DNA of 64,000 nt from Prorocentrum cordatum (taxonomy: Eukaryota > Sar > Dinophyceae > Prorocentrales > Prorocentraceae): assembly GCA_963575745.1 (NCBI GenBank), contig CAUYUJ010015838.1:205001-269000 (forward strand). Reading direction: 5' to 3'. A program made the translations under genes and the position numbers. Of the stretch, positions 2,185 to 64,000 are shown piece by piece. Every line of letters starts with the position of its first letter. Positions within the stretch are counted from its first letter, which is position 1. The notes under the pieces were generated by a model, which was not told the DNA's origin, searched no databases, and worked only from the letters and a program-made list of their open reading frames with translations.

Positions 2185-2654
2185 CTAAATCCACTGCGCG
2201 GCCGAGAGGGCGTCTGAGAAGTTTGACTCGAACTCTGCCATGACTTTCTGCTGTAAGGCGTTGTCGAAACCGCGGTCGACCGCTGCATGAGACCACTGGA
2301 GCTTTGTGGGAGTGACAGCATTGCTACCAACAACAAGACGCACCAGGGCACCGCCACGGTTCGCCACGTAGCCCAGGGTGCGGTGGGGGCGTACATCGAC
2401 TTCTGGCTTGGCATTGTGCATGATCTTGGCGGGGCGCTTGACCTGGAATTATGCGCGCACGGCCTCCGGGCTTTTGCCGGCAGATACATGCAGAGGAGCA
2501 CGCGCACCGTTAGCCTGGCTGACATGAAAGGTTCTCCACTCTTTCCCATTGCGAAGAGCACTATCGAGGCGCTGTGCGCGAGGCTCCACCACAACGGCGC
2601 CCCCACTGACCTGAAACGAGTGGCGCTTGGCAGGGCCGACTGTGTTGAAGATGA
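2185..2654 (-). pseudogene. LINE-C ORF1, C-terminal part
   Basis: The open frame resumes as VIFNTVGP after the YR element. It contains NGKEWRTFHVSQ followed by PLHVSAGK, matching NGSWRAFHVDVG and PIHISADK of LINE-A ORF1 (residues 358-381). A frameshift near 2435 moves the rest into another frame, which ends KLQWSHAAVDRGFD..., matching KVEWNLPALADAGL near the LINE-A ORF1 C-terminus. In LINE ORF1 proteins this half is the nucleic-acid-binding region. Its order and spacing relative to the 8985-9410 piece fit a single ORF1 of about 450 residues. Confidence 0.7.
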
Positions 2655-2658
2655 CCAT

Positions 2659-2833
2659 CGTGACGCTATCCTGGCCAGGAGACATGTTGCGTGTCTCGGA
2701 CCAGGCAGACAGGGCAGCACCTGGGCAGAGCTCGGTCAGAGACGAACGAAGGAGGAGGGACGAGCGAGAGGCACACACACACACACACACCACCACCACA
2801 GCACCACCACAACACAACACACACACGAACGAG

Positions 2834-2888
<55 letters not shown>

Positions 2889-2916
2889 AAGAGAGAGAGA
2901 GAGAGAGAAAAACAAA
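2659..2916 (-). repeat. YR element repeat B2
   Basis: This is the outer copy of B, ending at the ATGG core next to the resuming LINE-C ORF1. It holds a 2771-2835 AC-rich tract and a 2836-2915 (GA)n tract. Confidence 0.85.
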
Positions 2917-2950
2917 AAAATACCCCAAACATAGGGAGGCAGCGGGCGGG

Positions 2951-3030
2951 CACAGAAAAGGCTTGAGCCGTGACGGTTGCAGGCAGCCGCGCGGCCCTCA
3001 AACGCTCTACGATTACTGTTCAAGCACAAC
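2951..3030 (-). repeat. YR element internal repeat A2
   Basis: This is the second copy of A, lying between B1 and B2. The A2/B2 side includes about 35 bp of A-rich spacer (2917-2950), which is probably microsatellite drift. Confidence 0.88.
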
Positions 3031-3034
3031 CCAT

Positions 3035-3233
3035 CGTGGCGCTATCCCTGACCAGGAGACATTTTGTGTGTCTCGGGCCAGGCAGATCCAACCCGACAGG
3101 GTAGCACCTGGGCAGAGCTCGGTCAGAGACGAACGAAGGAGGAGGGACGAGCGAGAGACACACACACACACACACACCACAGCACCACCGCAACACAACA
3201 CACACGAACGGGGAGGAGGAGAGAGAGAGAGAA

Positions 3234-3274
<41 letters not shown>

Positions 3275-3281
3275 AGACCCC
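3035..3281 (-). repeat. YR element repeat B1
   Basis: B1 matches B2 across CGCTATCC...GAGACAT, GTGTCTCGG.CCAGGCAG and an identical run of about 55 bp (3103-3157 against 2716-2770), then (AC)n and (GA)n tracts. B1 has an extra 10-11 bp near 3087-3097. By eye the non-microsatellite part is about 90% identical. Confidence 0.85.
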
Positions 3282-3316
3282 TAGCCACCCCGAACGGGCT
3301 TCTGGCATTTGCCGCC

Positions 3317-4110
3317 TTAAGATATAATATGACGCAATCGCACTAAACGATTTGAATCGACACTGCGTTTCAGAGCTCGGGCAAAGCAAGAACAAAAACG
3401 AAGGGGATACGGCTCAGCAGCGCGAGTCCAAAGTTTGCCCGAGCTCTGATCAAACCCCTTCAAGACAATGCGGGGCTTGGACGCGTGAATGCAGATCCCG
3501 CCTCGGCCATAACAGAGAGTAGGCAACTGGATGGAAAAGTTCGGGGCCAAACTTGCACCCTTGTCCTTTTGCGCCACCGCGCCCCGAAACCACAATAGTC
3601 CACAGTGCAGGCCTGGCTAGTCGGTCGACGGGCCAGGCGCTCGAGCGGAGGGGCCTTCCATACCCAGCTGGACCCTGGGTTCTCCAGCGCCACGGGAGTG
3701 CCGACGCGGAGGCAGCTCCGAACAACCCGAAGACAAAAACGCAACTGCTCGTTACCCCTCTTGCACGCTTCGGAGGCCCTGGAATCCAGATTCGGGAGGC
3801 CCCAGATGTGCTCGGCACTACGTAAACGGCACCAGCTGGAACCCGGTGGACCGTGGCGGGCTTGGGACCAGGTGCAGCAAGGGCTTCCCATCCAGACAAC
3901 TGAAACCACATTACTGGTGATCCACCCGAGAAGCGTCGTTTGGACAACGCGGCGGTTCAAATCAAACCAAGGCTGTTTCAAAATGTCGGCAGAAACCGAG
4001 GCGAAACCCTGGGCCCTCATGGCCCTGGACAGCCCGCCTTTTCCCGCATAAAGTTCCAAGAGAACTTGACTGTGATGACTTCTTGCTGAACCTGAAGCGC
4101 GCCGCAACAT
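3317..4110 (-). pseudogene. YR element C5-cytosine-methyltransferase-like domain
   Basis: The first frame (4110-3460, 216 codons) begins 33 bp after the recombinase stop. It shows motif I LELYAGKGGLSRAMRAQGF, motif IV GSPCCTWSQARHG with the catalytic PC, motif VI ALENPGSSWVW and the motif VIII-like DYCGFGARWRKRTR. After a frameshift near 3575 the expected C-terminus continues in a second frame: LCYGRGGICIHASKPRIVL and WTRAAEPYP, ending at 3317. These are the ordered motifs of Dcm/DNMT-type enzymes, with a short target-recognition region. It lies inside the terminal repeats, so it travels with the element. It may have modified host or element DNA; substrate and activity are not visible. Confidence 0.78.
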
Positions 4111-4142
4111 GCGGCGAAGCCGAAGCCTAATCTCAGCGTCGG

Positions 4143-5300
4143 TCAGCGGAGCCGCGCCAGGAGGGGCGCCGGTGGCAGCGCCGCGCCGCCCAGCACGATG
4201 CCTGGCAGGTTGTGCATCCCTGCACTGCCGATGTCCAGCACCTCCTGCGGCACCTTATGAAGCTCGGCAAGAGCGCGAGCCTCTTTGCCGTACCTCTTCA
4301 TCATGGCGTCGCTGCGCCAGCGGCCTCGGGCCTGGACCTCTAGCGGGATCCGCCGCTTCGAGAGCAGGTCGTGCCACGCGCCACCGTGCCGCAGGCCGTG
4401 GGCGGTGATGCCCATCGCCGCCACGCCCAGGGCCTCGGCGGCCTCCTGGATCCTGACGATGAGGTTGCCTGGCTCGAAGGTCCAGATCCGCTGCTCCAGG
4501 GAGCGGCATCCCACCTTCAGCTTCCTCGAGCAGGGGTCGAGAAAGTCCAAGTCGTCCAGCACCACGCTCTCGTCCCAGGCGCCAACATTGGTCAGCTTCT
4601 CGAGCTCCGCCGAGCCCGAGAGGAGGCCCCAACAACGAGTCTGGGGCCCTCTTGCAGCCACAGGTGGCACCAGATGGAGCGCCGTCAAGGAATCGCACTC
4701 GCCCGGCTGCAGGTACGCGCTGAGGCACAGCAAGGTGGCTACCGCCTGCTCGACAAGGCGGCGCGGCAACAGGTGACCCACAATGGCCAGCATCAGCACG
4801 TGGGGTGTCGGCAACTGCGTCTAGCGTGGGACGACCTTCGCCCATCCTGCAAGCGCCCGGGCCGAGCGAGGCAAACTCTGGTCCACGTAGCGGCCAACCT
4901 CCGGGCAGTTGAACTTCACCGCCGCTAAGGTCTTGCTGGCCACATCGCCTGCCCTGCCAAGGTAGAACAGCTTGTCCAGGTAGAGGACCAGCGCGTTGTC
5001 CAGTCGTTGCACATTGTTCCAGTCGAGGCCCGACTCCAGGGCCCACTCGAGAAACGATCTCATCTTCTTGAAGTAATCTTTGCGTGTAGCAACCGCCACT
5101 GAACGGCTCTCGAGGCACGTCATGTGGGGCGAGTCCTGGAGGGGCCCCGATGGCAGCGATGATCGGCGGCACTGCGTCCGCCGCGCTGCTGCTGCTGCCG
5201 CTGACGGCGCGGCCAGCCCCGCCAGCCAGCACCCCTGGGTCGCCACCAGGGAGCGCATCTGGTAAGGGGCCGATCGGGCTGAAAGCTGGGAGCCTCGGGA
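4143..5300 (-). pseudogene. YR element tyrosine recombinase
   Basis: This enzyme would integrate the circular cDNA, replacing a DDE integrase. The core-binding domain (about 5100-4825) shows ATRKDYFKKMRSFLEWA and SKTLAAVKFNCPEVGR. The catalytic domain (4814-4143) has AYLQPGECDSL (4716-4696), ITAHGLRHGGAWH with the H-x-x-R box (4408-4384), RGRWRSDAMM and the nucleophile RYGKEA (4305-4279). Two defects are visible. An in-frame TAG at 4821-4823 separates the two domains, and the first catalytic arginine of the usual R-P-x-E box reads Gln. A frameshift lies between it and RNase H (about 5380-5130). The active-site His, second Arg and Tyr are kept. Confidence 0.88.
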
Positions 5301-5395
5301 CGGCTGGAAGAGGCTTAGCAGGCTCGCTATCACGAACCTTGTTGCCCGCCTGGATGGTGAAGTCCTGCTCCTGCTGACGCTTGATGTACGACAGA

Positions 5396-7486
5396 CCTCG
5401 GAATGGATTGTCTGCTGGATTCCTTTCGGACGGGACCCAGCGCACATGTATGTGAAGACGGCGCCCCAGGGTCAACGCGGCCAGCTCTCGCAGGACATCC
5501 CGAAGCTGAAAAGCCGCCGAGCGGCCCTTTCCGACTGCCAGCGCAAGCCCCGCGTTGTCAACGAGGGCGAGCATACGACGCCCAAACGCTCGACGATCCC
5601 GAAGGGTGTGACGCAGAGCATTCGAAGGCGCGAGTCCCTCCAGACGTAAGATGTTCGCTGGGCCCCGCCACGGAAAGGACTCCACGATATGCCAGGCCTC
5701 TGCATCTGTGAAGCTCGCCTCGACCATGTCGTACGACTTCTTGAACTCCTCGGCCTGCCGCAAGCTGTCAGGCAGGTCGTCAGCGCAAGCGGTCTCCGCG
5801 ACGTCGGTGGCGAACGCGTGGCTCCGAGCGGCAGCGGCGCCCTGCCTGCACCGCCACTTCTCCGCTGTGCGGCCCCAGCGAGCGACCAGCTCCGGGTCCG
5901 CTTGGCGCACGCAAACACCACAGCCCCAAGGGGAGGCGTCACTGGCGGTCACGGTCGGCAGCCACTTGGCGTCGGTGTGGGCCACGAACAGCGGGAGCAG
6001 ATTCCTAGCGAGCTTGAGCTCCTCGACGACCGAGTCCCAGAGCGGGGCCACCTCCTGCTCATGCTTCTTCACGAAAGCGTAGATCGCGTTGAAGATCGAC
6101 AAGGTAGGACGCTGCAGCAACATCAGCCACGTCGCATGACCCAGGATGACCTCCAGGACTCCGCCCGAGCAGCGGCCGCGGCGCAGCAGCTCCTCGATCG
6201 CCAGCCGAAGGCGCCACATCCGCCGGGTAGACGCTCGAACGGCATGGGCGCGCCCGTCGAACGAGAGGCCCACGAAGTCGGCGTGATCCACGGCCTCTGA
6301 CGTGTCCTCATGCACGGTGAAGCCCTGGTCCTCAAGGCTTGAATAGACGAGCTGGCCAGCAGCTGTAACCCGATCCTTCGGCGCGCCCTGCATCGTGAAG
6401 TTGTCAACGTAGCCGGCAGCGCCTAGCGGCCGCTCAGGCCCAAACGGGCGAGAGGCAGCGCGATCCTTCACCAAGACGTCCGCGTCCAGACCGCCACGCG
6501 CGAGGCCCTCCTCCGTGACCAGCTGGCAGAAGTGCAAAGCCCAGCTCCAGCCCATCGGTAACACCGTCAAGATGGGCGCGAGGGAAGCAGAGGCAGCGAC
6601 CCGCGCGCCTCCTACCAACGGCCGCCCGACCAGGCCAGCCCGAACAGGTGGTAGACGAAAAGCATGACCCGAGCTCAGGCGGCACCGAGATGGCGTAGAA
6701 GGCGTTCTGCACATCGCCCACGGAGTACCAGACCACGTCACACTCGCTAATTTCCATTCGAGAAAGCAAAGGCCGAGGGCAGGCGCGTGGCCGGCGGCGG
6801 CTCGAAGTCACAGTTGGCCAACCGCGTATCGAAGATGATCCGTTATTGCCCAGACTTCTTCTTGGCGAAGAAGAGCCCCGCGGAGGCCTCGGCCTGGGTG
6901 GGAACCAGGCGTGCCATCCCGCGCTCCAGCACCCCCTTCACAAAGTCCGCGTGGGCGCGCTGGTGGCGGAAGGCGGGGTCCACATAAGGCTGGCAGAGAC
7001 CGAGCTCAGACCGGAGGGCTGCCGCTGCAGCTGGAGGTCTTCGCATCTTGGCCGTCAAGTCTCCAGCCAGGAGGCGCGCTCAATCGAGGGTGCGCTGCCC
7101 AGGTCCACTGGGGCCGCTCCCAAGGCTGGCCAGGACGCGAGGTCCTTGCTGTAGGGCACGACGGTGGTGGAAGTCTCGCCGTGCACCACGGCGGATCCGC
7201 AGAGCTCACGCAGGCTCCCGCGGGGGTGGGCGTCGGCTGGGCGGGCACCGGCGGCAAAGTAGCAGCGCTCCAAGTGCTCGAGGCAAGACTGTTGCACAAC
7301 CGACGGCTGCCCAGCTGCATCGCCACCGCGACCAGAGAGAGAGCTGGGGGCGTGGAGGCCATCATTCGCCCATTCGAGCGCGCGAAGACGTCGGAGGGCG
7401 CGGCGTTCGACTGCTCGAGAGCGGCCACCTCCGCGCTGCGGAAGTGGAAGAATGGGCAGTGGGAACACGTCGCGCTGGCGACTCAT
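5396..7486 (-). pseudogene. YR element reverse transcriptase and RNase H
   Basis: The enzyme copies element RNA and removes the template. In order I see LRELCGSAVVHGE and TVVPYSKDLASWP (7230-7130), GLFFAKKKSGQ (about 6875-6846), RIIFDTRLANCDF in a second frame (about 6842-6800), motif A SVGDVQNAFYAISVP (about 6730-6690), LPMGWSWALHFCQ (about 6570-6530) and motif C YVDN (6411-6400). RNase H follows with TVTASDASPWGCG (about 5955-5920), LALVDNAGLAL (about 5570-5540) and VRWVPSERNPADNPF (about 5440-5400). YVDN in place of YxDD and the WVPSE.NPAD ending are typical of DIRS/Ngaro-like elements. Frameshifts near 6850 and 6650 break it. Confidence 0.85.
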
Positions 7487-7573
7487 CCCGCAACAGCCGA
7501 AAAAAAAGAAAAGCCTGCTAGCCCGGGGCCAAGGAGCGGCAGGCAGCCGAGTCCGCGAGGGAGCAGCCGAGGG

Positions 7574-8836
7574 TTACTCGCCCTCTTTGCCGCCCTTGGC
7601 CCCTCTCTGTGGACGGGCCAGCGCGCGTTCCTCTCTTGCCTTCCTCTGCCCCCTGGCGATCGCGGTCTCGTGGGAGATCTGCTCACTGATCCAGATGCTG
7701 AGCTCTGGGGCCACCATGAGCCCACGAGTGGTCGCCGTGCCCGCGAAATAGTGGTGCTCGTCTCGGCGGGACTCGTCGCCGAGCTTAGTGCCGAGGATCT
7801 GGTCACGATAACGCTCTTCGCACAACTGCAACTGGCGCGACACCAGCTCGGGCGCGCCCATGTTGCTGATGTCCAGCTGGTCGTAGCACGGCGCCGTCTC
7901 GAAGATCTTGCTCAACTCCGGGAGCGTGGACGCTGTGAAGTCCCCCAGCGCAAGCCTGATGTTGGACCTCCACTGCACATGGTGGCCGAGAGCACAGCCG
8001 CCATTCTCCAGCATGAACAGAGCCACCCACGCCACGGCAAGAGGGCCTGGGACAGGCCAGTCGACCCACGCCGAGGGCGACAAGATCGCGACCGCGTCGG
8101 CAAACTGGAAGTCGTAGATCGCCTGTCCTGCCGCGGCGGCGGGGATGGCCTCGCCAGGCCCACAGAGACGCCAAGAGGCGATGTCGGCGTCGTCCGCCAA
8201 GAAATGCTCGCTGAAGAGATTGTGATCGGGCGAGACCACCGCTGCGTGCAGAGGCTGCACGCTGCTGACGCTCACCACCACGCGCTTGTGCCGCAGCACA
8301 AGACCAAGAACGGAATACGCCACGATCACCTCAACGCCGACATTCATCCGCCGCCTGGACACGTCCACGGCCGCGAGGCACACAGCGATCCAGCGACCCC
8401 TCCAGGGCGCGCAGTGCTCCGCCCTCCTGCGGCGAGCCTTGCGACCGGCCCGCGATGCCGCCTGCCTGGCGGCGCGCCAGGCCGCAAGCGGCGGCCACAC
8501 CGCGATTGAAGAGCTCCCAGACGAACAGCGCGAGCAGCCCGAAGCCCAGCTCGTCGCCCCAAGACCACTGCCCTGGCTCCGGCTTGGGGCTGGCCGGGCG
8601 GGGTTGGGGCAGGTGTCCCTGGCTGGGGCGGCCAGCGCCGGCGAGCACTGGGCGAGCGCCACGCAGAGGTCCTCGACCTGCGCAGCAGGCGGCGGCGCGG
8701 CCGCCGGGCAGCCCCGCGGTTCCGGGGCAAGCGCTCGGACGGGCCTCGCCGCCTCCAGAGCGGCCGGCGCGGGCGCCAGCGGCCGCGAGCCCCCATCAGC
8801 CGCCCCAGCCAGGCGGCGCAGGCGGGAACGCGACAA
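7574..8836 (-). CDS. YR element gag-position protein (ORF1)
   Basis: This is the first open frame after A1, 420 codons and intact. The N-terminal third is Ala/Pro/Arg-rich and low in complexity. The middle (from about residue 180) holds a hydrophobic block, VEVIVAYSVLGLVL, followed by VSPDHNLFSEHF. The C-terminal third reads APELVSRQLQLCEERYRDQI and HHYFAG, then a charged tail (KAREERALARPQRG). I recall similar blocks upstream of RTs in dinoflagellate predicted proteins, but cannot name a domain. Its position between the terminal repeat and RT suggests a gag-like role, which is inference. The start at 8836 is the first Met; the true start may be further in. Confidence 0.55.
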   Translation of the reverse strand: MSRSRLRRLAGAADGGSRPLAPAPAALEAARPVRALAPEPRGCPAAAPPPAAQVEDLCVALAQCSPALAAPARDTCPNPARPAPSRSQGSGLGATSWASGCSRCSSGSSSIAVWPPLAAWRAARQAASRAGRKARRRRAEHCAPWRGRWIAVCLAAVDVSRRRMNVGVEVIVAYSVLGLVLRHKRVVVSVSSVQPLHAAVVSPDHNLFSEHFLADDADIASWRLCGPGEAIPAAAAGQAIYDFQFADAVAILSPSAWVDWPVPGPLAVAWVALFMLENGGCALGHHVQWRSNIRLALGDFTASTLPELSKIFETAPCYDQLDISNMGAPELVSRQLQLCEERYRDQILGTKLGDESRRDEHHYFAGTATTRGLMVAPELSIWISEQISHETAIARGQRKAREERALARPQRGAKGGKEGE

Positions 8837-8900
8837 GCGACACGCCGAGGGCCACAGGGCGCGTGCGCGAGCCTCCGCGCGAGAGCCACCTGAGGCCCCT

Positions 8901-8980
8901 CACAAAACAGGCTTGAGCCGTGGCGGTTGCAGGCAGCCGCGCGGCCCTCAAACGCTCTACGATTACTGTTCAAGAACAAC
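8901..8980 (-). repeat. YR element terminal repeat A1
   Basis: The outer 70 bp (8911-8980) match A2 at 2961-3030 with two differences (8922 and 8975). The next 10 bp are 80% identical. The offset is exactly 5950 bp. It borders the LINE-C flank at the ATGG core. Confidence 0.9.
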
Positions 8981-8984
8981 CCAT

Positions 8985-9410
8985 GCTCTTGCTGATCTCG
9001 GCCTTCTCGGACCACTCCTTGAGGGCGCGTTCGAGCTCGGGCTGGCAGAACTCCTGAGGGCTGTCGCACCAGAGCGTGGCGGGGTCGGGGTCGCGGTCCC
9101 AGGTGCCCAGGCCGTCTGGGCTGAGAGCTGGAGCCCTGGCTTCCGCTGCAATGGCGATGGCTCCCAGCTTGGCGACGGCGGCTTTGAGGTCGATGTTTTG
9201 CTGCTCGAAGATGTTGGTGCGCTCGTGGACGGCTGTGATGGGGCGTTCTGTGGCTTCATGACGTTTGCTGAACTCTGCGGTGATCTGGGTGATGCTGGCG
9301 AAGAATTTCTTTGCTGGCTTGGGCAGTGTCGACTCTGGCTGTTGCTTCGAACTTGTCGGATGCGTCTTTGATCTGAGCGGCCATGGTCTCCTCGAGTGGT
9401 TTTCGAACAT
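8985..9410 (-). pseudogene. LINE-C ORF1, N-terminal part
   Basis: ORF1 proteins of LINEs bind RNA and form the retrotransposition particle. A likely start MAAQIKDASDKF lies near 9384 in a neighbouring frame, and a frameshift is needed about 25 codons later to join the frame shown here. The following segment is helical and charged (KKFFASITQITAEFSKRHE...), as expected for a coiled coil. It then reads WDRDPDPATL, which aligns to WDREVDLSIL in LINE-A ORF1 (residues 279-288). The frame breaks at EISKSM, exactly where the YR element was inserted. The product is a fragment and cannot function. Confidence 0.7.
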
Positions 9411-9722
9411 GACCGGGTAAGTCATGCACTGCAAGCTTCGCTGCTCCATCATGCCATGGGTCTTGCTGCCGTTTGCCACCGTCGTGCTCATGTCCGTTGG
9501 GAAAAAGGAGAGCGACCGGTCCAGCTGCTCGTGGCGTCCCAATGGGGACACGCAGAGGCCCGTGCCAGCCTCAGGGCATCGCACGTGGAGGCTACTGCAG
9601 GCGAGCGCAGTGCCAAATATGAAGCTCAACCAGCAGGGCAGCTGGAAGGCGCAGCGCGAAAAAGGGGTCCTTAGCTGTCCCTGGACCAAGGGTCCTAGTG
9701 CTCTGCCACGGGGCGAAATCAT

Positions 9723-20931: not shown

Positions 20932-23900
20932 CTACTCATCTGCATGCCCTCCGTGCCGCTCTCCCTGCAAGAGCACACGGCAGGGGCCTTCACAATGTTG
21001 TGGCGGCCTGCTTGCAGTCAGGGGGCCCGAAAAGGAGGCCTGCTCCGCTGCAGACAGCACCCTGATCCCTGCACAGTTGCGGGGCATATCATAATCCACG
21101 AATCGAAACAGGGTGAGGTGGGGCGGGGACGAGGCATCATCGGAGCGAAGGGAACGAGGGGGAGAGGGAGCCGACTCTGGCGAGGCTGGAGTTTGAGGCC
21201 CGCCTGCAAACATGGCCTGCTCTTCGGCAGTGATCATCCTGATCCCACTGGGATCGCGGGGCAAATCGTAATCAACGAACTGAAATTCAATGAGCTCATC
21301 ATCGCGACAGGGATTGGGCACTGAGGGGGGATCAGGAGGGATCGAGGAGAGAGATGGCTGAGGCGACGCAAGCAATGGGAGACCTATTACCTCAGAGCCC
21401 CGAGCCTCATTCATGGGGTCGTCCTCCTCGTTGGCTCGGCGGGCCGCTTCGATTGCCTCACGCAGGGTGGGCCGACGAAGAAGTGCCAGCTGCTGTCGTC
21501 CACGAAGAGGGAGCCTCAGCGCGATCTGCGCAGCAGGGACCAGCTCCAGCGCCCGTGCGTAGGTCGGCGGGGAACAGTGCCGTGCCGCCATCAGCCGATA
21601 ATGGTGGTAGCAGGCAATGAGAGAGGCCGGCGTCGGCCCCAAAAGCCCAAGTCGATGCCGTATCTCGCCAGGGAGATCTTCACGAAGAATGAGGGCGCCG
21701 AAGTGCGCACACCGATAGCACTCCACCAGATAATGTCGCATAGTATCGGGACCTCCACACCCATAGATACACCACGCCTCTCGCTGCATACGTCGGTGAG
21801 TAATCCATCCCCCGAGGTACGACCGCACACAAATGAACGCCCACGATGCGGGCATGAGCTGCAGCTGACTGATGACCGTGGGCCAGCACACATTACGAAT
21901 ACCAAAGTGCTTCTGCACACGGGCGGCGAGTAGCTCCTGGAGTCTGTCAGGGAAGACCGCCCGCTGGAAGATGTCGGTGAAAGCCGCCTGCCACTTGGGT
22001 GCTCGAGAAGGTGACACGCCTTGACCTTCCGCTGGCTCCGCAACACGACGGGCGAGGCTCCATGGGAGCTGACAGGGATTGGGTCCAGCACGAAAAAACT
22101 CGATCACCTCGTCGGGGACGGAGGAGTCGCCGCTTCGCCAGAGACTTAATGCCATTTGTCCTCCCGCTCTCAGCAGTTGGGACGATGGAAAGCCCTTCGC
22201 TGCCTCTTCCAAACGGCAGGCAAAAGGTGGGGCCAACCAGAAGTTCGGAGCCAGGACGTCACTGGTAGCTTGGGAGAACGTGCCATATTCCCAAAGAAGA
22301 TCACGATGTCGTTGCAACTGCAAGCGCCATGTCGAACATGTGATCAGAGCCGCACGAAGACGCGCAGCGGCAGCGATGCAGAAGATCGAGCTGAACCTCG
22401 GGCCATTCACCGTGCTCAGCGCGAAGCAGTCACCAGTCCGAAGCATACTAGCGGGAGCGCGCATAATGCGGGCAAGCAGAAAGCGCTGCTGTTGCCCAAC
22501 CCGCCAATGAAGAGGAACCAGCTGAGCAACGTACGACAGCGTGGGAGCGGCTCTTTGACGATCTAGCGCGGCAGCCGTGGAGAGAGCTGCGCCCTGTGAC
22601 GAAATTGCGGTAGTGCGAGTAGCATGCTTGAGAACAGGAGTCGACCATTGACTGTCATCTGTGGCTCCAGGCCCAATCTGAAAGCCAAGATAAGTGCACA
22701 CAGGAGCATTTGCGAAATCTGCCCATGCGGGGTCGGCTCCCACAAGTTGGCGTCGAAGTAGGGCTCCGTGTTCGGGCATAGATGGGTCACGCAGAGGTAT
22801 CACATTGCATTTTGCAGGCTTAAGTCGTAGCTGAGCAAACCTCGAAGCATGTCGAAATACTCGAGCCAAACGTGGATACGCCCTGTTATGGAAGACGACT
22901 GCCCCAAGACCGTCTGCACAGGCACGAATGACACCCAGGAGACGCCCCCGTGCGACCAAACAATGTTCTAAGTCCAGGAGAAACGGATTGCTCGCGACGA
23001 CATAAAGCGAACCACTCAACGGACAGCCCTGAAGCACCCCCGAGTTCATGTGGTATAAGTACGTCGGGGAGTCGCTAACGAAGTAGCATGGAGTGCAGTG
23101 GTAAAGGGAGCGGATAGCGCGAACCAGAGGGGCAGGAATCCGAAGTCGGGCGAGACATTGGAATAGCCACTCCTGGGATACCGATGGGAAGGCCTGGGCG
23201 AAGTCAAATGCAATCAATGACGGAGCTTGGGGGGACACAGCAGACATAATACTAGCCGAACGAGCGTAGAGATCCAAATCGACAATATTATCCAAGAAGT
23301 TGCGCCTCCGAATAAAGCCCCGTTGTGACGGGGCCCCGATCTTCTGCGTGATCCAGCTCATAGTCTGGTTCAGTACACTGCACACCACTTTATTCGAGGA
23401 GTTCTTGAGTCCCAACGGGCGGGTATCACCAGGGGCCCGTACAACGCCACCATCGTCGGGATCATGGGAGGGGGCCTTTGGGTCCTTGGGGAGGAAGACG
23501 GCCAGCAGCGCTGTGAAATTGGAGGGCATGAAGTTCCCAAGAGCAATCCAGCGAAGAACTTCAAGAAGGACCCTAGACCCCGAACCACATCTCCAGGCCG
23601 CATAGTGAAGCCCGTCGGGGCCAAGAGCGGACCAGTTCGACTGCTTAAGTGCACGTTCTACATCGCGAAGGACGGGCGGGCGTACATCTGAGAAGTCCTC
23701 TGAGCTGCTGAATCTGTCTATGTATTCCTTGGCGATGGAAGGGACGGAGTGGGTCTTGGAGAAAACAGGGCCCCAATATGAAGCCAAAGCGTCCACCATC
23801 GGGGACTGGGAAGGAGGTGCAGGTTCCGCCGCCAATGAGCCACCCGCCAGCATCTCCGACACCGAAATCATCTCAGTGGCCGTGACCGATGCTAGATACT

Positions 23901-25587
23901 TACGCCGAGAAAGTGGGTTCCATAACTGGGCAGATCGAATGATAGCACGACGACGCCCAGCCAGACGAACCCTGACCGTGTTAGATGACGACTGGTTGAT
24001 CTCTGACTCAAGAGCTTTCCGACGAGATTCAGCTTCTTGCCGCCGCCATAAACTATGAAGATCATGGAAGCCACCGGGATCGATGAAAGACACATCCTCA
24101 CCGTCTACACTTATGAGCCTCTGCGTCCAGGGGTGCTGGAAGAGAAGAACTCGTGCAAGACGGGCGTCACCACGCCAGACACATCGTGCAACCGAACGAG
24201 AAATCATAGCCCGAGAGGTCAGACAGGATGGCGCAGCACGGCAGATGGCATTGCGTGCAAGAAGCCCAGCAGCTTGTCGAACAGCGGTGGCAGCAGCGAG
24301 CATTCGCGGCGGGTCGAAAGCAAGATCTTCGATGCCCACCTGGGCTTCCATATGGGAGACCAACTGAGCATAAATCTTGTCTTTGTACACCCACCGCGGG
24401 AGGGGCCTCTGACGTTTGGTTCTAGTGTGATCCCGAGGGCGCCAGACGATCTCCAGAGGCGAATGGTCCGAAATACCTCGGTGGGCCAACTCATGAGGTT
24501 CGTCACGGACCGATGCTAGCTGAGCCGTTTGACACAGAAGCCATGGTGGGGATGCGACAAAGAGACGATCGATTTTGGACTCACAGGCAGTCGAGGCGTG
24601 CCAATGGGTTGGCGCCTCCGAGGCGAGCTCCGTCATGTCCCTGAAGATCTTCCGCCAGCTCGAGTCGCCAGGACGGGACGCCCTCGTAGAGCCAACCCGC
24701 AGGGTGGAGTCGCCACGCTGGTCCCCACCCACGTGCAAGGATGCTGATGTGGGCTGCCCCCTCTGCGAGCCTTCCGTCGACGCAGTACTGGGGGAGGCTG
24801 CAGACGGGGGAGAAGCTGAAAGAGACGACGCCGAAGAAGGGGTCTGACTCGGAGAACATGGCCCAGAAGGTGAAGTACAGGTGGCCACTGTTGTCCTCGA
24901 CGATGCCGAACTCGGAGAGCATGTGGCCGTGGGGTTGTGACTTTGCAGGGCTGAATCCTGCCCCCCACGGCCCGACGAACATGGAGTACAGGTGTGCCCC
25001 TCGCCACGATGGTGTTCGATAGGCGTCGCAGGAATGTTGAAGTCGCCTGTGAGGATAACAGTGAACTTCATCGGATCATCCCGCACTCTTCGAAGTTGCG
25101 ATTGAACACATGCCTGAATCTCCTTCAGGCCGTCGGCGTTGATGGCAAAATTGTGCACGTTCCAGTGGTAGATAGTGAAGTCGGCCTCTGAATTATGTAT
25201 AGTAACTAGCAGCACCCGACCAGCGACGAAGCTCTTCCCCTCGGCTCGAACGCTTGGGTGCTTTGGAACGAGGGTGGCGACACCTCCAGTCCGAGGCGTC
25301 ACCGACTCAGAAACGAAGCAAGAGTGCGTCGTACAGTGAATCCTCTGAAGAGCTTCTTCCATGGCACGTTCACCACCGTGGATCTCCTGTAACGCCACTA
25401 CCTTGCCAGCCCCCATCAGTTTGCTCAGGTAGCTGAGCTTCCTGCTCAAAATCGCTGGTCTGTAGTGTAACAGGGCCCCCGTGTTCCAGGTCGTGAATGC
25501 CAGAAATCCCACACCAAACACTTCGTTACCCACTCCACCGTACTTCACGTGTGTCGAAGACCTGGCGAGCAAGCTCATTGGCTTCAT
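20932..25587 (-). CDS. LINE-A ORF2: APE endonuclease and reverse transcriptase
   Basis: The 1551-residue frame overlaps the ORF1 end by 62 nt in the +1 frame, with a first Met at 25587. APE motifs are TTWNTGALLHY (near 25490), VVALQEIHGGE, ILTGDFNIPA (25047-25036), SKIDRLFVASPP and HRGISDHSPLEIVW (near 24480). RT motifs are GPDGLHYAAW, TRPLGLKNSSNK, GFIRRRNFLDN, FDFAQAFPSV (near 23208), SGVLQGCPLSGS (near 23045), CADGLGAV (near 22917) and LKPAKCNVIPL. A zinc-knuckle-like CIYGCGGPDTMRHYLVEC lies near 21770. The C-terminus has two copies of a block, FVDYDLPRDPSGIRMI and FVDYDMPRNCAGIRVL. The usual ADD of the RT reads ADG. The Ser/Pro-rich stretch at about 25020-24650 may be a frame-shifted patch that stays open. 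Confidence 0.88.
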   Translation of the reverse strand: MKPMSLLARSSTHVKYGGVGNEVFGVGFLAFTTWNTGALLHYRPAILSRKLSYLSKLMGAGKVVALQEIHGGERAMEEALQRIHCTTHSCFVSESVTPRTGGVATLVPKHPSVRAEGKSFVAGRVLLVTIHNSEADFTIYHWNVHNFAINADGLKEIQACVQSQLRRVRDDPMKFTVILTGDFNIPATPIEHHRGEGHTCTPCSSGRGGQDSALQSHNPTATCSPSSASSRTTVATCTSPSGPCSPSQTPSSASSLSASPPSAASPSTASTEGSQRGQPTSASLHVGGDQRGDSTLRVGSTRASRPGDSSWRKIFRDMTELASEAPTHWHASTACESKIDRLFVASPPWLLCQTAQLASVRDEPHELAHRGISDHSPLEIVWRPRDHTRTKRQRPLPRWVYKDKIYAQLVSHMEAQVGIEDLAFDPPRMLAAATAVRQAAGLLARNAICRAAPSCLTSRAMISRSVARCVWRGDARLARVLLFQHPWTQRLISVDGEDVSFIDPGGFHDLHSLWRRQEAESRRKALESEINQSSSNTVRVRLAGRRRAIIRSAQLWNPLSRRKYLASVTATEMISVSEMLAGGSLAAEPAPPSQSPMVDALASYWGPVFSKTHSVPSIAKEYIDRFSSSEDFSDVRPPVLRDVERALKQSNWSALGPDGLHYAAWRCGSGSRVLLEVLRWIALGNFMPSNFTALLAVFLPKDPKAPSHDPDDGGVVRAPGDTRPLGLKNSSNKVVCSVLNQTMSWITQKIGAPSQRGFIRRRNFLDNIVDLDLYARSASIMSAVSPQAPSLIAFDFAQAFPSVSQEWLFQCLARLRIPAPLVRAIRSLYHCTPCYFVSDSPTYLYHMNSGVLQGCPLSGSLYVVASNPFLLDLEHCLVARGRLLGVIRACADGLGAVVFHNRAYPRLARVFRHASRFAQLRLKPAKCNVIPLRDPSMPEHGALLRRQLVGADPAWADFANAPVCTYLGFQIGPGATDDSQWSTPVLKHATRTTAISSQGAALSTAAALDRQRAAPTLSYVAQLVPLHWRVGQQQRFLLARIMRAPASMLRTGDCFALSTVNGPRFSSIFCIAAAARLRAALITCSTWRLQLQRHRDLLWEYGTFSQATSDVLAPNFWLAPPFACRLEEAAKGFPSSQLLRAGGQMALSLWRSGDSSVPDEVIEFFRAGPNPCQLPWSLARRVAEPAEGQGVSPSRAPKWQAAFTDIFQRAVFPDRLQELLAARVQKHFGIRNVCWPTVISQLQLMPASWAFICVRSYLGGWITHRRMQREAWCIYGCGGPDTMRHYLVECYRCAHFGALILREDLPGEIRHRLGLLGPTPASLIACYHHYRLMAARHCSPPTYARALELVPAAQIALRLPLRGRQQLALLRRPTLREAIEAARRANEEDDPMNEARGSEVIGLPLLASPQPSLSSIPPDPPSVPNPCRDDELIEFQFVDYDLPRDPSGIRMITAEEQAMFAGGPQTPASPESAPSPPRSLRSDDASSPPHLTLFRFVDYDMPRNCAGIRVLSAAEQASFSGPLTASRPPQHCEGPCRVLLQGERHGGHADE

Positions 25588-26938
25588 CCCTGGACAAGCC
25601 AGCGTCGGCCAGTGCAGGGAGATTCCATTCCACCTTCGGCGTTCTGCTTGCAGGTAAAGGGAGCACCCGCACCAAGGGCTCCCACTTGGCCATAAGTTGA
25701 CCATTGTCCTTGTCGAGGAATGTACGGATGCCACGGTCGGTGAGACCCCGTTGCAGCTTCTTGCAGGCAATCTCTGTGGCAACCATCTTTTTGTTCTTGT
25801 CCGCGGAGATATGGATCGGCACCGACTCAGTGCCCACGTCAACATGGAATGCACGCCACGACCCATTTGGCAGTCGGAGCTGCTGCTGGGCCTGACTCCT
25901 TCTCGATGAACGGGTTGCTTCCATGGGGCCTTGAAATGCAAGAGTAAAAGATTTGGTGACGTCATCTCCATGCAGTTCCACACCGTCCCCGAGAGGGACG
26001 TTTGCTTCGGTGAGCCAAGGAGCCAGGGCCGCCGCCACAGCATTCTTAGCCACAGCAGAGGGTGCCCGCACCGTGAGGATGGAGAGGTCCACTTCCCTGT
26101 CCCACTCTGGGTTCGGTACAACGGGAGGACGCGGCTTCGCCTTTGCCAGGTCGAGCTCTTTTTCCAGATGCGATAGCCGGTGAGCGATGCCCGCCACAGT
26201 GCTGTCGAGCAGGTCCGACCGAGCACGCTGTGCATGGACTTCACCGTCGACACGTCGTAGCTGCTGGTTGAAGCGCTCCTCATACTTCTCCATGAGTGGG
26301 ACCGTGGCCGCGCTGAGCGCGGCAGGGAGCTGTGCCAGGATGGTCTCCATCGCTTTCTGTGTGAAAGCTTGCATGGCCTCTGCCTGAAATGAGTCCGAAG
26401 ATTGAGCAACGTGTCCGACAGCATCATGAGATGTGGTTCCATTGGACGCAGCCGCCGTCGCCCAGGGATCAGGCGCACGGCCATCCGCAGAAGTGCCAGG
26501 AGTCGCCCATGGCCTTGAGACTGGTGGAGTCGGCCAGGGTGATGGGGAGGGCGAGGCCGTCGCTCCCCCAGTTGCATGAGGGGCCAGGGCTTGCGCCTCG
26601 CCAGCTGGTAAGGGGGTGGCGATGCCAAAGTGCTGTGTCCCGCAAGAGCTGTCGACGATGATGGGGGAGGCGCCACGGCCAGCACTGCGGGAACGCCGAG
26701 AGCCCTCAGCCGACGCATCACTGGCGGCGGGGAGGTAGCGGTCCCGAGTCCGAATGCGATCACGTTCGCGACCATCAGGGGCACCATGAGAATCACGAAG
26801 ATCACGCAGCCGAGCCGAGGGTGAGGAGGCACGCGGGGTGGATGATGCAGAACGTGATGAGGCCGTCGTCGCCCGCCGTTCTTCCTTCGCCTTGCGAGCC
26901 TTTCGTTCATGACGACTGCCGCCCATGAGCACCTGCAC
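25526..26938 (-). CDS. LINE-A ORF1 protein
   Basis: The 470-residue frame has a basic N-terminus (RHERKARKAKEERR), a Pro/Ser/Ala-rich region (about 60-170) and a helical coiled-coil region (about 185-265, LMEKYEERFNQQLRRVDGEV). WDREVDLSIL follows, then a nucleic-acid-binding domain with NGSWRAFHV (358-366), PIHISADK (374-381) and a C-terminal KVEWNLPALADAGL. It should bind the element RNA. The start is the Met at 26938 or the one at 26926 (MGGSRHERK). A longer overlapping frame open from 26961 is treated as a shadow, because the conserved blocks shared with LINE-C lie in this frame. Confidence 0.8.
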   Translation of the reverse strand: MQVLMGGSRHERKARKAKEERRATTASSRSASSTPRASSPSARLRDLRDSHGAPDGRERDRIRTRDRYLPAASDASAEGSRRSRSAGRGASPIIVDSSCGTQHFGIATPLPAGEAQALAPHATGGATASPSPSPWPTPPVSRPWATPGTSADGRAPDPWATAAASNGTTSHDAVGHVAQSSDSFQAEAMQAFTQKAMETILAQLPAALSAATVPLMEKYEERFNQQLRRVDGEVHAQRARSDLLDSTVAGIAHRLSHLEKELDLAKAKPRPPVVPNPEWDREVDLSILTVRAPSAVAKNAVAAALAPWLTEANVPLGDGVELHGDDVTKSFTLAFQGPMEATRSSRRSQAQQQLRLPNGSWRAFHVDVGTESVPIHISADKNKKMVATEIACKKLQRGLTDRGIRTFLDKDNGQLMAKWEPLVRVLPLPASRTPKVEWNLPALADAGLSRDEANELARQVFDTREVRWSG

Positions 26939-27073
26939 ACCCTAAGAACGAGGAGACTCAAGACGGCAGCGCGGAGCTCCCCGTCCAGGTCCTGAGAGAG
27001 GATGTCGGGCTGAACAGCCCTGGCACTGCCGCGGACTAGCGGTATCCACTCGTTCCCCTGCGGAACTCAACAT

Positions 27074-44744: not shown

Positions 44745-44812
44745 CTAACACTAATCCTCACCCTTGCTTTAACCCCTAACCCTAACCCCAAGCCCAAACC
44801 CTACCCCCAAAC
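44745..44812. repeat. Short interstitial telomere-like tract
   Basis: CCCCTAACACTAATCC and AACCCCTAACCCTAACCCC occur in tandem. Dinoflagellate telomeres are reported as the plant-type heptamer TTTAGGG; this is a degenerate relative. Confidence 0.55.
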
Positions 44813-44814
44813 AG

Positions 44815-46318
44815 TACTCACTACTCATTACGCACTACTCACGACCCACAATTCACTACTCGCTACCCACTACTCACTTCTCTCTACTCACAACTCACTA
44901 CTCACGACTCACTACTCACTACCCACGACTCACTACCCACGACGCACTACTCACTACTCCCTACTCCCTACCCACTACTCACTACTCACTACAAACTACT
45001 CACGATTCACTACCAACAACTCAATACTCACTACCCACTAAACACTACCCACTACTCGCTAATCACACATCACTACTCACTACCCACTAACCACTATCCG
45101 CTACTCACTACTCACATTTCACTACTCACTACTCACTGCCCACAAGTCATCACTCACTATCCACTACTCGCTACTCGCTACTCCCTACTCCCTACACATT
45201 TCTCACTATTCACTTCTCACTACTCGCTACTCCCTACGCCCTACTCGCTACCCAATACGCACTATTCACAACCCACTACTCACTACTCACTACGCTCCCA
45301 CTACTCACTACTCAGTACTTCCTACTCCCTATTCACTACTCCCAACTCACTACTCAGTACTCAATACTCATTACTCCTTCAACACTACGCACTTCCCAGT
45401 ACTCACTACTCACTAAGCGCTACTCACTATCCACTAACCACTGTCCACTGCTTACTACTGAGAACTCACACTTCACTACTCAGTACTCACTGCCCAGAAC
45501 TCACTACTCACTATCCGCTACTCGCTATCCAACAGGACATATTCACTACCTCCTAAGCACTACTCGCTACTCACTGCGCCCTACTTCCCCACTAGTCACT
45601 AGTCGCAAGTCGCTACTCATTACTCATTACTCACGACACACTACTCGCAAATTTCTACTCGCTGCTCCCTACGCACTACCGGCTACTCAATACCCACTTC
45701 TCGCTTCTCACTACTCACTACTCACTACTCCCTATTCACTACTCACAACTCACGATTCACTACTCACTACTCACTACTCGCTACTCCCTACTCGCTACGC
45801 ACTACTCCCTACTCACTACTCACTACTGACTCCTCACTATTTCGTCCTCACTAATCACGACTCACTACGCCCTACTCGCTACTCACTACTCGCCACCCCC
45901 TAGTCGCTACTCCCTACTCGCTATTTGCTACTCGCACTCACTACTCACTACTCACTACTCACTACTCTCTATTCACTGCGCACTACTCACTACTCACTAC
46001 TCACTCCTCGCTACTGTCTACTTCCTCATCCCTACTCCCTGCTTGCTACTCACTATGCAGTACTCACTAAACACTACTCACTCCTCAGTCACTCCTCACT
46101 GCTCACTACTCACAATTCCTTACTCACTACTTCCGGTCCACTACTCACTACCCACTACCCACTACTCACTACTCACTAACCTCTACGCGCTACTCACTAC
46201 TACCACTGCTCATTACCCACTACTCACTACTCACCACCCACGACTCACTGCGCACTACTCACTATCAAATACCCACTACTCACCAATCGCTACTCTACTC
46301 TCTACTCACTACCCGAGA
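44815..46318. repeat. 1.5-kb (CTCACTA)n heptamer array
   Basis: CACTACT/CTCACTA heptamers, with drifting variants CCCACTA, CTCGCTA and TCCCTA, fill about 1.5 kb directly after the telomere-like tract. No stop-free frame here is real. Confidence 0.93.
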
Positions 46319-61488: not shown

Positions 61489-62113
61489 TGTCCACTCCAC
61501 TGCTCGCGCAAACATCCCACCCTCCCACCCGCAACTTGATCTGCAAAATCTCTTAAGACCGTGACGGTGGGTACCAAATGGCACTTGGCAACGACACCGA
61601 CGCCGACGACGACAGCGACAACGACGACGACGACGCCGCCGACAACGACTACGACGACACCGACGACGTCTCCAACGACTTCGACGACGACGACAACGAC
61701 GACGACGACGACACCGACGACGACGACGACGCCGACGCCAACGACGACGACGACGATAACAACGACGACGACGATGACGACGCCGACGACGACGACAACG
61801 ACGACACCGACGACGACGACGTCAACGACGCCGCCGCCGACGACGACGACGACGACGGCGGCGACGACGACGACGCCGACGTCGACGACGACGAAGACGA
61901 CGACGACGCCGACGCCGACGACGACGACGAAGACGACGGCGACGACGACGTCGCCAACGAAGACGACGACGAGGGAGGAGGGAGGACGACGACGGCGACA
62001 ACGACGACAACGACGACAACGTCGAGGGAGGAGGGAGGACGACGACGGCGCGAACGACGAAGAAGGAGGAAGGACGGCGACGCCGACGACGACAACGACG
62101 AGGGAGGAGGGAA

Positions 62114-62151
<38 letters not shown>

Positions 62152-63085
62152 CGACGAAATAGGAGGGACGACGACGAGACGCCGACGACGGACGACGAAG
62201 ACGACAAGGGAGGAGGAGGAAGGACGACCACGGCGACAACGACGACGGAAACGACCACGACGCCAAAGAGGACGACGACAACGACGACGAACACGAGGAA
62301 AGACAGAGGACGACGTAGGCGACGACGACGACGACGACGACGCGGGAGAAGGGAGGACGGCGACGACGACGACGACGACGACGCAAGAGAGCGCGCGCAC
62401 GCTTTTGTTGAAAATCCGCATTGCAAAACGTTGTGTTTTTGTAGGTTGTTTGGACACACGATGTTGAAAGCCTTCCGAAGCCGATGGGTTTTGAAGGATT
62501 TCGGCATACGCGCGCGACAACGCGCGCGTATGCACTTCGTCCCATTTTTTCCAGAGGATTCTCGCGACGGCACACGCGCAAGGGCGTTTGACAGACTTCG
62601 ACATGCGCGCGCGAAGCCCGTTTGGTAGCATTTTGTGAAAATCTTGAAAAAGCTATGGTTTTCTAAAGATTTCGCAAGAGCTCGCGCGTAAGCTTTTTTA
62701 GCAAATCAGTGTTGCGAAACCCTGTGCGCTTGTATGTTTTTTAGAAACTCGATTGCGAAATCCTTCCGACACCGAAGACTTTTGAAGGATTTCGGCATGC
62801 GCGCGCGACGACGCGCGCGTGTGCACTTCGTCACATTTTTTGCAAGGGATTCGCGAAAAAGTCTTATGTTAGAGCAAAGAATGTCCCCGCGTATTCTCTT
62901 TTACAAGGGAGCCTCAGGGGGACCGATCCCGGCCCCCCTGGGAAATTCACATGTAGGATGGACATGTGGTCATAATCATAAATGATTTACATACTCGAAA
63001 AGGGGGGGAGAACGCGGGGGGGGGGTAGAGTATATTCTCTCTTTAGAAAACATAATACACTTTGACTGTCTTGAAGCTGTCCTCT
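61489..63085. repeat. 1.59-kb tandem unit, copy 1: flank, (GAC)n, AT-rich hairpin blocks
   Basis: A flank of about 110 bp (61489-61600, with CTCTTAAGACCGTGACGGTG and GGTACCAAATGGCACTTGGC) leads into (GAC)n-rich sequence to about 62395. That is followed by AT-richer blocks with GGATTTCGGCAT.CGCGCGCG. The flank recurs at 63086-63190, offset 1589 bp. Confidence 0.85.
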
Positions 63086-64000
63086 CCACTGCTCGTGCAA
63101 ACATCCCATCCTCCCACCCGCAACTTGGACGCAAGACCTCTTAAGACCGTGACGGTGGGTACCAAATGGCACTTGGCCACGACACCGACGCCGACGACGG
63201 CAGCGACAACGACGCCGACGACGACGACTACGACGACGCCGACGACGACTACGACGATACCGACGACGACTCCGACGACTTCGACGACGACGACAACGAC
63301 GCCAAAGAGGACGACGACGACAAGGAAAGACAAAGGACGAGGACGGCGACGACGACGACGGCGACGAGGGAGGAGGGAGGACGGCGACGACGACGACGAC
63401 CACGACGAGGAAGGAGGAAGGACGGCGACGCCGACGATGACGACGACGAGGAAGGAGAGCACACGACAACGATGACGATGACGACGAGGGAGGAAGGAGG
63501 ATGACGACGACGACGACGACGGACGACGACGACGACGACGACGACGACGAAGACGACGACGACTAAAACGACGGCCATGACGAGGAAGGAGGGAGGACGG
63601 CGACGCCGACGACGACGACGACGACGAGGGAGGAGGGAGGGCGACGACGACGACGACGACGACGAGGGGGTGGAGAGCTCCGGCGAACAAAACGTGAGTC
63701 GAGAGCTTCTGGACGCCGACGACGCCGACGATGACGACGAGGGAGGAGGGAGGAGGACGACGGGAACGACGACGACGACGGCGGCGATGACGACGCCAAC
63801 GATGACGACGACGACGAAGACGATGACGACGAAGGCGCCGTCGACGACGACGACGACAACGAGAAGGATTTCGGCATCAGCGCGCGGCGGCCGTGCACAT
63901 GTGCCCCGCATTGTGTTTTCTACAAGGAATTGCGGCCCTGACAAGCGCACGACCGATGTTGAAGGCGTTCGACGCGCGCGCATTAGTTGCTCGCATGACC
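63086..64000. repeat. 1.59-kb tandem unit, copy 2 (cut by the window edge)
   Basis: It repeats the flank, the (GAC)n tract (63180-63860) and then a GGATTTCGGCATCAGCGCGC block (63867-63886). It runs off the right edge, so more copies may follow. Confidence 0.82.

Follow-up and report, generated by a model that had tools for sequence, protein, structure and literature searches.

To our knowledge, the choice of integration sites by retrotransposons of the DIRS order is poorly known, because these elements make no target duplication. The PAT, Ngaro and DIRS1 classes are defined in PMC4157794, PMC3266345, PMC6681497, PMC3783388, PMC8547959 and PMC9210276. PAT-like elements combine split direct repeats, reverse transcriptase with RNase H, a putative methyltransferase and a tyrosine recombinase (PMC4157794, PMC3266345, PMC6681497). 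Ngaro elements show an A1-[ORFs]-B1A2B2 layout, where A and B are repeats and ORFs are open reading frames, and also occur as isolated AB repeats (PMC8547959, PMC9210276). DIRS1-like elements have a 3-bp circular junction and no target-site duplication (PMC3266345). In the dinoflagellate Symbiodinium, SymbioDIRS-Dnmt3 has the order A-coding-B-A-B, with reverse transcriptase, RNase H and methyltransferase in Pol (PMC5890265). The stretch analysed here, referred to as the window, comprises 64,000 nucleotides of the dinoflagellate Prorocentrum cordatum (contig CAUYUJ010015838.1, positions 205,001 to 269,000) and carries on its minus strand a 6.3-kb element of the order A1-ORFs-B1-A2-B2. Among the related copies read in the genome, most sit in arrays of the trinucleotide ATG, in one orientation and register.

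The A copies of the window element (2951-3030 and 8901-8980) agree at 80 of 84 bases when the adjoining CCAT is included, with 4 mismatches in 80 between A1 and A2. The B copies agree at 87% of 253 aligned columns, and CA/GA tracts account for much of the difference; ahead of the microsatellite, 133 columns include 7 mismatches and 12 gaps. Both similarities are far beyond chance in a self-comparison of the window (E = 1e-82 for B and 1e-31 for A), which detected no second copy of the element in the 64 kb. CCAT, or ATGG on the minus strand, marks all three junctions (2655-2658, 3031-3034 and 8981-8984). The repeat comparison confirms the A and B copies and the ATGG at three junctions described in an earlier sequence-only reading of the window, and its broader proposal, a split-direct-repeat tyrosine-recombinase retrotransposon inserted exactly in a dinoflagellate host, is supported.

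The element interrupts ORF1 of a long interspersed nuclear element (LINE). When the flanks are joined with a single CCAT between them, the ORF1 frame is restored, and a search of protein sequences with this joined site gave two uninterrupted LINE proteins, P0096 and P0097, among 2,099 candidates. Both align to the joined flanks without a gap across the junction over 267 amino acids (58% and 57% identity), whereas each falls into three alignment pieces against the native, occupied window. We searched the genome of origin (4,128,499,153 bases, or 4.13 Gb, in 21,875 contigs) with the 157-nt joined site. The best 40 of 102 candidates scored comprise the window's own two halves and at least 38 uninterrupted LINE copies; eight of the 10 best LINE copies align without a gap, and seven of the 10 carry ATGG at the site. 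The empty site that had been reconstructed from the letters alone is therefore found unoccupied elsewhere in the genome. These proteins and LINE copies test it better than the match to LINE-A ORF1 offered in the sequence-only reading. Given the gap-free joined alignments and the uninterrupted copies, the insertion is exact, and the LINE target most likely carried ATGG beforehand.

A search of the genome with the A repeat gave 40 places, including the window's two, as the best 40 of 143 candidates scored, and 30 stretches were taken. Seven further distinct copies could be read end to end (L009, L010, L012, L015, L016, L017 and L018). All seven keep the A1-ORFs-B1-A2-B2 order that had been expected of the family, with the domain order gag, reverse transcriptase/RNase H, recombinase, methyltransferase; they are 72.9-93.1% identical to the window copy and show 3-8 mismatches in 80 between A1 and A2. 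At a ninth place (C13226, loci L013 and L014) the ends lie 16.5 kb apart and only the ends were read. Two contigs carry copies (L009 and L011) that are 99.5% identical and have identical 80-nt flanks, representing a duplicated segment or separated haplotypes; L011 is dropped from every count. The recombinase region of L015 is split by roughly 1.5 kb of additional sequence (element positions about 4942-6440), possibly a nested insertion. In the 2 kb taken of locus L031, one A and one B stand by themselves, separated by 302 bp and flanked by ATG-rich sequence, the pattern expected from recombination between A1 and A2 and comparable to the isolated AB repeats of Ngaro elements.

The junctions of the family share three bases. 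The internal joint reads ATGG in 12 of 13 distinct loci (with two more G in L025), and the 5' outer junction reads ATG followed by G in 21 of 23. At the 3' outer junction ATG is present in all 18 loci, and the next base is A in 15 (ATGA) and G in three (the window, L012 and L016). Ambiguous loci are left out, L037 and L038 from the 5' count and L037 from the internal count; the 3' ends of L037 and L076 were placed by eye. Three of the 18 3' loci (L044, L052 and L053) come from a pattern search that gave 19 exact matches, its backward control giving none. Since all 18 of the 3' outer ends have ATG and just three have ATGG, the shared core is ATG, and the G that follows it at the 5' junction is part of the element. 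The sequence-only reading had taken ATGG for the crossover core of the family, which the 15 ATGA junctions correct to ATG. The DIRS1 junction is likewise 3 bp in size (PMC3266345).

A typical insertion has the arrangement (GAT)nGATG/G-A1 ... B2-ATGATGATG, the slash marking the 5' junction. If flanks with at least 6 ATG per 60 nt are counted as ATG-rich, 20 of 23 flanks qualify on the 5' side and 16 of 18 on the 3' side, and most of these are (ATG)n arrays. The threshold is reached by 1% of 12,788 stretches of the window. Around 1,800 ATG sites in the window, ATG-rich sequence occurs upstream of 10.9% and downstream of 10.6%, and around 875 sites in 10 LINE loci the values are 1.7% and 1.5%; this background covers the window and the LINE loci only. 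The binomial probability of the observed enrichment is 9e-17 for the 5' and 3e-14 for the 3' flanks. Excision of the element together with one ATG leaves an in-phase ATG-rich sequence in six of seven paired copies, the exception being L012.

The preference extends to elements with different termini. A genome search with the recombinase piece yielded 151 matches from the best 150 of 7,504 candidates scored, and three groups with identities of about 56%, 45% and 42% supplied 11 regions following the recombinase, 3' sides only. These groups represent three further families with A and B sequences unlike those of the window element. Their internal joint reads GATG/G in all 10 copies with two B repeats (L070 has one B), and GATG is likewise the outer joint of 10 of 11 copies; the bases after the outer joint are ATG in seven, ATT in L068 and L078, ATA in L075 and GTG in L070. 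Outer flanks contain at least 8 ATG per 60 nt in 10 of 11. The array preference is thus seen in the copies read from four families. Next to the core, the terminal A repeats of three of the four families have in common the imperfect palindrome GTTCT(T/C)GAAC and TAATC, a candidate binding site of the recombinase.

We consider it very probable that the window holds a decayed PAT-like element whose circle-borne ATG was exchanged with a chromosomal ATG by its own recombinase, and that ATG microsatellites are the preferred targets. The cDNA of the element would close into a circle in which B meets A as B-ATG-G-A, a joint mirrored by the internal B1-ATGG-A2. The recombinase would then swap the ATG of the circle for the chromosomal one, with no loss of target and no duplication beyond the shared core. 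A preference of the recombinase complex for ATG trinucleotide microsatellites would bring most copies into arrays in one orientation and register, and leave the window copy as one that landed off target. In its mechanism the family seems to resemble other tyrosine-recombinase retrotransposons that integrate as circles, except that it strongly prefers ATG arrays. It is also probable, if less firmly so, that these elements belong to a dinoflagellate clade of tyrosine-recombinase retrotransposons that uses a 3-bp ATG core to insert site-specifically into ATG microsatellites, with register and orientation fixed, and encodes its recombinase wholly nested in the +1 frame of Pol. Because the junctions can be read, the core is a constant 3 bp and the target is a simple repeat, site choice can be counted within one genome, and insertion into arrays offers a plausible route to persistence in a giant genome while doing it little harm.

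Several observations weigh against this interpretation. The window copy, which is an off-target exception at an ATG in LINE ORF1, has no array and 0 ATG on either side. The flanks of L012 (4 and 4 ATG) and the 5' flank of L021 (4) have too few ATG to count as ATG-rich, and in family F56 the copy L068, with 1 ATG per 60 nt, lies outside ATG-rich DNA. The core deviates in the internal joint of L015 (ACGG), in the 5' outer junctions of L018 (GTGG) and L029 (AAGG) and in the outer joint of L076 (GATA). Three of the 10 LINE copies lack ATGG at the site (GTTG in L063, ACGG in L065 and L066), and the array background is drawn from the window and 10 LINE loci.

Three other explanations of the pattern can be set against this evidence. 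The arrays might have grown by slippage from the ATG ends of the element after insertion, with targeting being only apparent; ATG at the outer junctions could seed arrays, and some arrays are indeed pure (GAT)n. Such growth is unlikely because the internal B1-ATG-A2 joint, which provides the same seed, still reads ATGG in 12 of 13 loci, and the window copy is free of an array at a similar divergence of its A repeats (4 in 80, against 3-8 in 80 elsewhere). Within 80 nt, moreover, many arrays prove to be compound or broken up, with GTT, GCT and GAC variants. A shade less credible still is insertion that is random with respect to arrays, in which the ATG core alone would produce the pattern in a genome very rich in ATG arrays: the window does contain 12 runs of at least four GAT/ATC, and 11% of its ATGs have ATG-rich surroundings, but the observed proportion is 87-91% against these 11%, or against less than 2% in the 10 LINE loci. 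We give almost no credence to a 4-bp target-site duplication made by a staggered-cut integrase in the manner of long terminal repeat retrotransposons, since the 4 bp common to both outer ends of the window copy (CCAT/ATGG) shrink in most other copies to a nearly constant ATG that is the same as at the internal joint, whereas duplicated bases should differ by target, and the element encodes a tyrosine recombinase, with no DDE integrase in a Pfam scan of the window frames.

Set against the classes by their descriptions, the element is best assigned to the PAT-like tyrosine-recombinase retrotransposons of the DIRS order, as judged from its predicted content: split direct repeats, reverse transcriptase/RNase H, tyrosine recombinase and a putative methyltransferase. 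Ngaro elements by definition lack a methyltransferase (PMC3266345, PMC4157794), and the methyltransferase-like domain of the element excludes this class; of the Ngaro/PAT assignment made in the sequence-only reading, the PAT part stands and the Ngaro part falls. A DIRS1-like identity is excluded by the absence of inverted terminal repeats (0 of 11 inverted pairs of at least 20 nt join the two ends), although the element does have the DIRS1-like 3-bp circular junction common to the target. SymbioDIRS-Dnmt3 is defined by Dnmt3 (PF00145), which is found in none of the window pieces and in one of 40 relatives. The named relatives come from Prorocentrum cordatum, Symbiodinium and Cladocopium.

The known systems differ from the window element in several respects. 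SymbioDIRS-Dnmt3 carries its recombinase in a separate ORF and a methyltransferase of the Dnmt3 type, whereas Pfam recognises none in the window element; the portion of PMC5890265 available mentions neither site preference nor nesting of the recombinase. The order in the window element is reverse transcriptase, RNase H, recombinase, methyltransferase, with the recombinase +1 in Pol, whereas the PAT-like Kangaroo and nematode Pat1 have methyltransferase and recombinase separated by the internal repeats (PMC4157794, PMC3266345, PMC6681497). Types 1 and 2a of the Cafeteria Ngaro elements favour virophage DNA (PMC8547959, PMC9210276). In endogenous nimaviruses a tyrosine recombinase is likewise tied to insertion in one simple repeat, but these are large DNA viruses, the repeat is the telomeric (TAACC/GGTTA)n, and their recombinases are reported not to be closely related to those of DIRS elements (PMC10871703). 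ATG-repeat targeting is unmentioned in the available portions of PMC12477816, on Ngaro/PAT-like elements of Ectocarpus, and PMC10449503, on the Prorocentrum cordatum nucleus. Among the top-ranked results of the open-licence literature we found no report of microsatellite targeting by the DIRS order, which is no proof of absence. The repeat layout is already known from Symbiodinium; the preference for ATG arrays and the nested recombinase are the new part, and both were missed by the sequence-only reading.

Between RNase H and the methyltransferase part of the window element, the Pol frame is interrupted only by one stop at 4257, and the +1 frame of this interval contains the recombinase. Synonymous codons of the recombinase frame were shuffled and stops counted in the Pol frame. 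Over 376 codons of the window (5387-4260, ending just before the stop at 4257) there are 0 stops against 6.7 expected (P 0.0006), while the third frame contains 15 stops against 12 expected; over 326 homologous codons that include the stop at 4257 there is 1 in the Pol frame against 7.2 (P 0.0005). Depletion is also seen in L009 (0 against 5.1, P 0.001), L010 (1 against 6.9, P 0.0015) and L012 (0 against 3.4, P 0.014), and is less marked in L016 (1 against 3.8, P 0.09), L017 (1 against 3.3, P 0.11), L015 (0 against 1.8, P 0.14) and the two pieces of L018 (P 0.08 and 0.23). Among 22 of the 43 Pol relatives, each tested with one shuffled control, 18 carry a catalytic recombinase block in the +1 frame (scores 87-103, shuffle maxima 36-53); P0022, P0026, P0035 and P0037 do not. 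In the same 18 the box I block is also +1, 114-120 residues upstream of the catalytic block, and in 34 of 39 proteins with the recombinase in frame this distance is 115-121. Because both blocks recur in the +1 frame of 18 of 22 relatives, nesting of a putative recombinase in Pol is common to many of them. If this reading is true, the Pol linker and the enzyme that integrates the element are encoded by one stretch of DNA, presupposing expression from the +1 frame. In half of 28 DIRS1-like elements the recombinase and Pol ORFs have a long overlap (PMC3266345), whereas the recombinase of the window element is wholly within the Pol frame; the overlap of a whole catalytic domain is a stronger dual coding than described for DIRS1.

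The structural model of the recombinase has a predicted local distance difference test (pLDDT) value of 88.9. A relative with PF00589, P0081, aligns to the window recombinase over 229 amino acids (E 3e-21), and the recombinase frame has a sub-threshold Pfam match to the N-terminal domain of phage integrases (E 0.059); a sequence search of the PDB with the recombinase piece gave no match. Relatives of the recombinase retain the box I arginine in 53 of 58, the box II arginine in 53 of 58 and the tyrosine in 45 of 58. Pfam finds nothing above cut-off in the window frames; among 40 relatives it finds RVT_1 in 22 and PF00589 and PF00145 in one each, and no RNase H match. Reverse transcriptase and RNase H were identified by alignment to Pol relatives. 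The active-site box of the reverse transcriptase is YVDN in 33 of 40 aligned rows and YxDD in only two, which is unusual for this enzyme.

The conserved methyltransferase-like domain is likely of C5 nature, as suggested by a model of methyltransferase-type fold (mean pLDDT 82). In Foldseek, ranks 1-6 and 8 are C5 DNA methyltransferases (MET1, DNMT1, ZMET2 and M.HaeIII; E 3e-4 to 2e-3, query template-modelling score 0.33-0.39), and other methyltransferases appear from rank 7 on with similar E-values. The alignment preserves LELYAGKGG, PCCTWS and ENP, which we take to be C5 motifs I, IV and VI, and the cysteine is missing in some relatives. No methyltransferase Pfam domain is found in the window pieces, PF00145 included, and Dam (PF05869) is absent also from the 40 relatives. 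A profile search gave only four weak matches, the best being DNMT2 (E 0.2), and hhalign of the profile against P0095 gave nothing.

The window copy is a dead, decayed fossil, with frameshifts in reverse transcriptase and at the methyltransferase end, a TAG at 4823 in the recombinase, a stop at 4257 in the Pol frame and a glutamine (4709-4707) in place of the box I arginine. The description of the element as complete in the sequence-only reading applies to its outline and not to its coding region.

Features of the retrotransposon and its LINE host in the window
Feature	Position	Strand	Basis
5' junction core ATG (host/element)	8982..8984	-	junction sequence, junction table, LINE copies
A1 repeat; first base G at 8981 is the element's own	8901..8981	-	repeat comparison, junction table
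Open frame with gag-like part	7574..8899	-	8119-7640 matches P0012 residues 132-307, 29%
Reverse transcriptase and RNase H, frameshifted; motif YVDN	5389..7504	-	frame changes near 7050, 6760, 6660
Tyrosine recombinase, +1 frame relative to Pol; LRHGG and GRW..RY present	4194..5123	-	alignment to relatives
Pol frame, open through recombinase region; first stop 4257	4258..5388	-	ORF list, alignment
Methyltransferase-like domain; frameshift near 3530-3547	3353..4098	-	alignment, model
B1 repeat	3035..3281	-	repeat comparison
Internal joint ATGG, made up of the core ATG and the opening G of A2	3031..3034	-	junction table
A2 repeat including first G at 3031	2951..3031	-	repeat comparison
B2 repeat	2659..2916	-	repeat comparison
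3' junction core ATG; next G (2655) is host LINE sequence	2656..2658	-	junction table, LINE copies
Host LINE ORF1, portion downstream of insertion	2188..2655	-	protein alignment
Host LINE ORF1, portion upstream of insertion	8982..9462	-	protein alignment

Searches of two other DNA collections (viral_contigs and genome_contigs) found no relatives of the element. Self-comparison of the window also displays large diverged repeats at 44812-46315 and 61489-63868. Another LINE, LINE-A, occupies 20932-27066 on the minus strand with an open frame of 2044 amino acids, and its ORF1 lies in another frame at 25526-26941.

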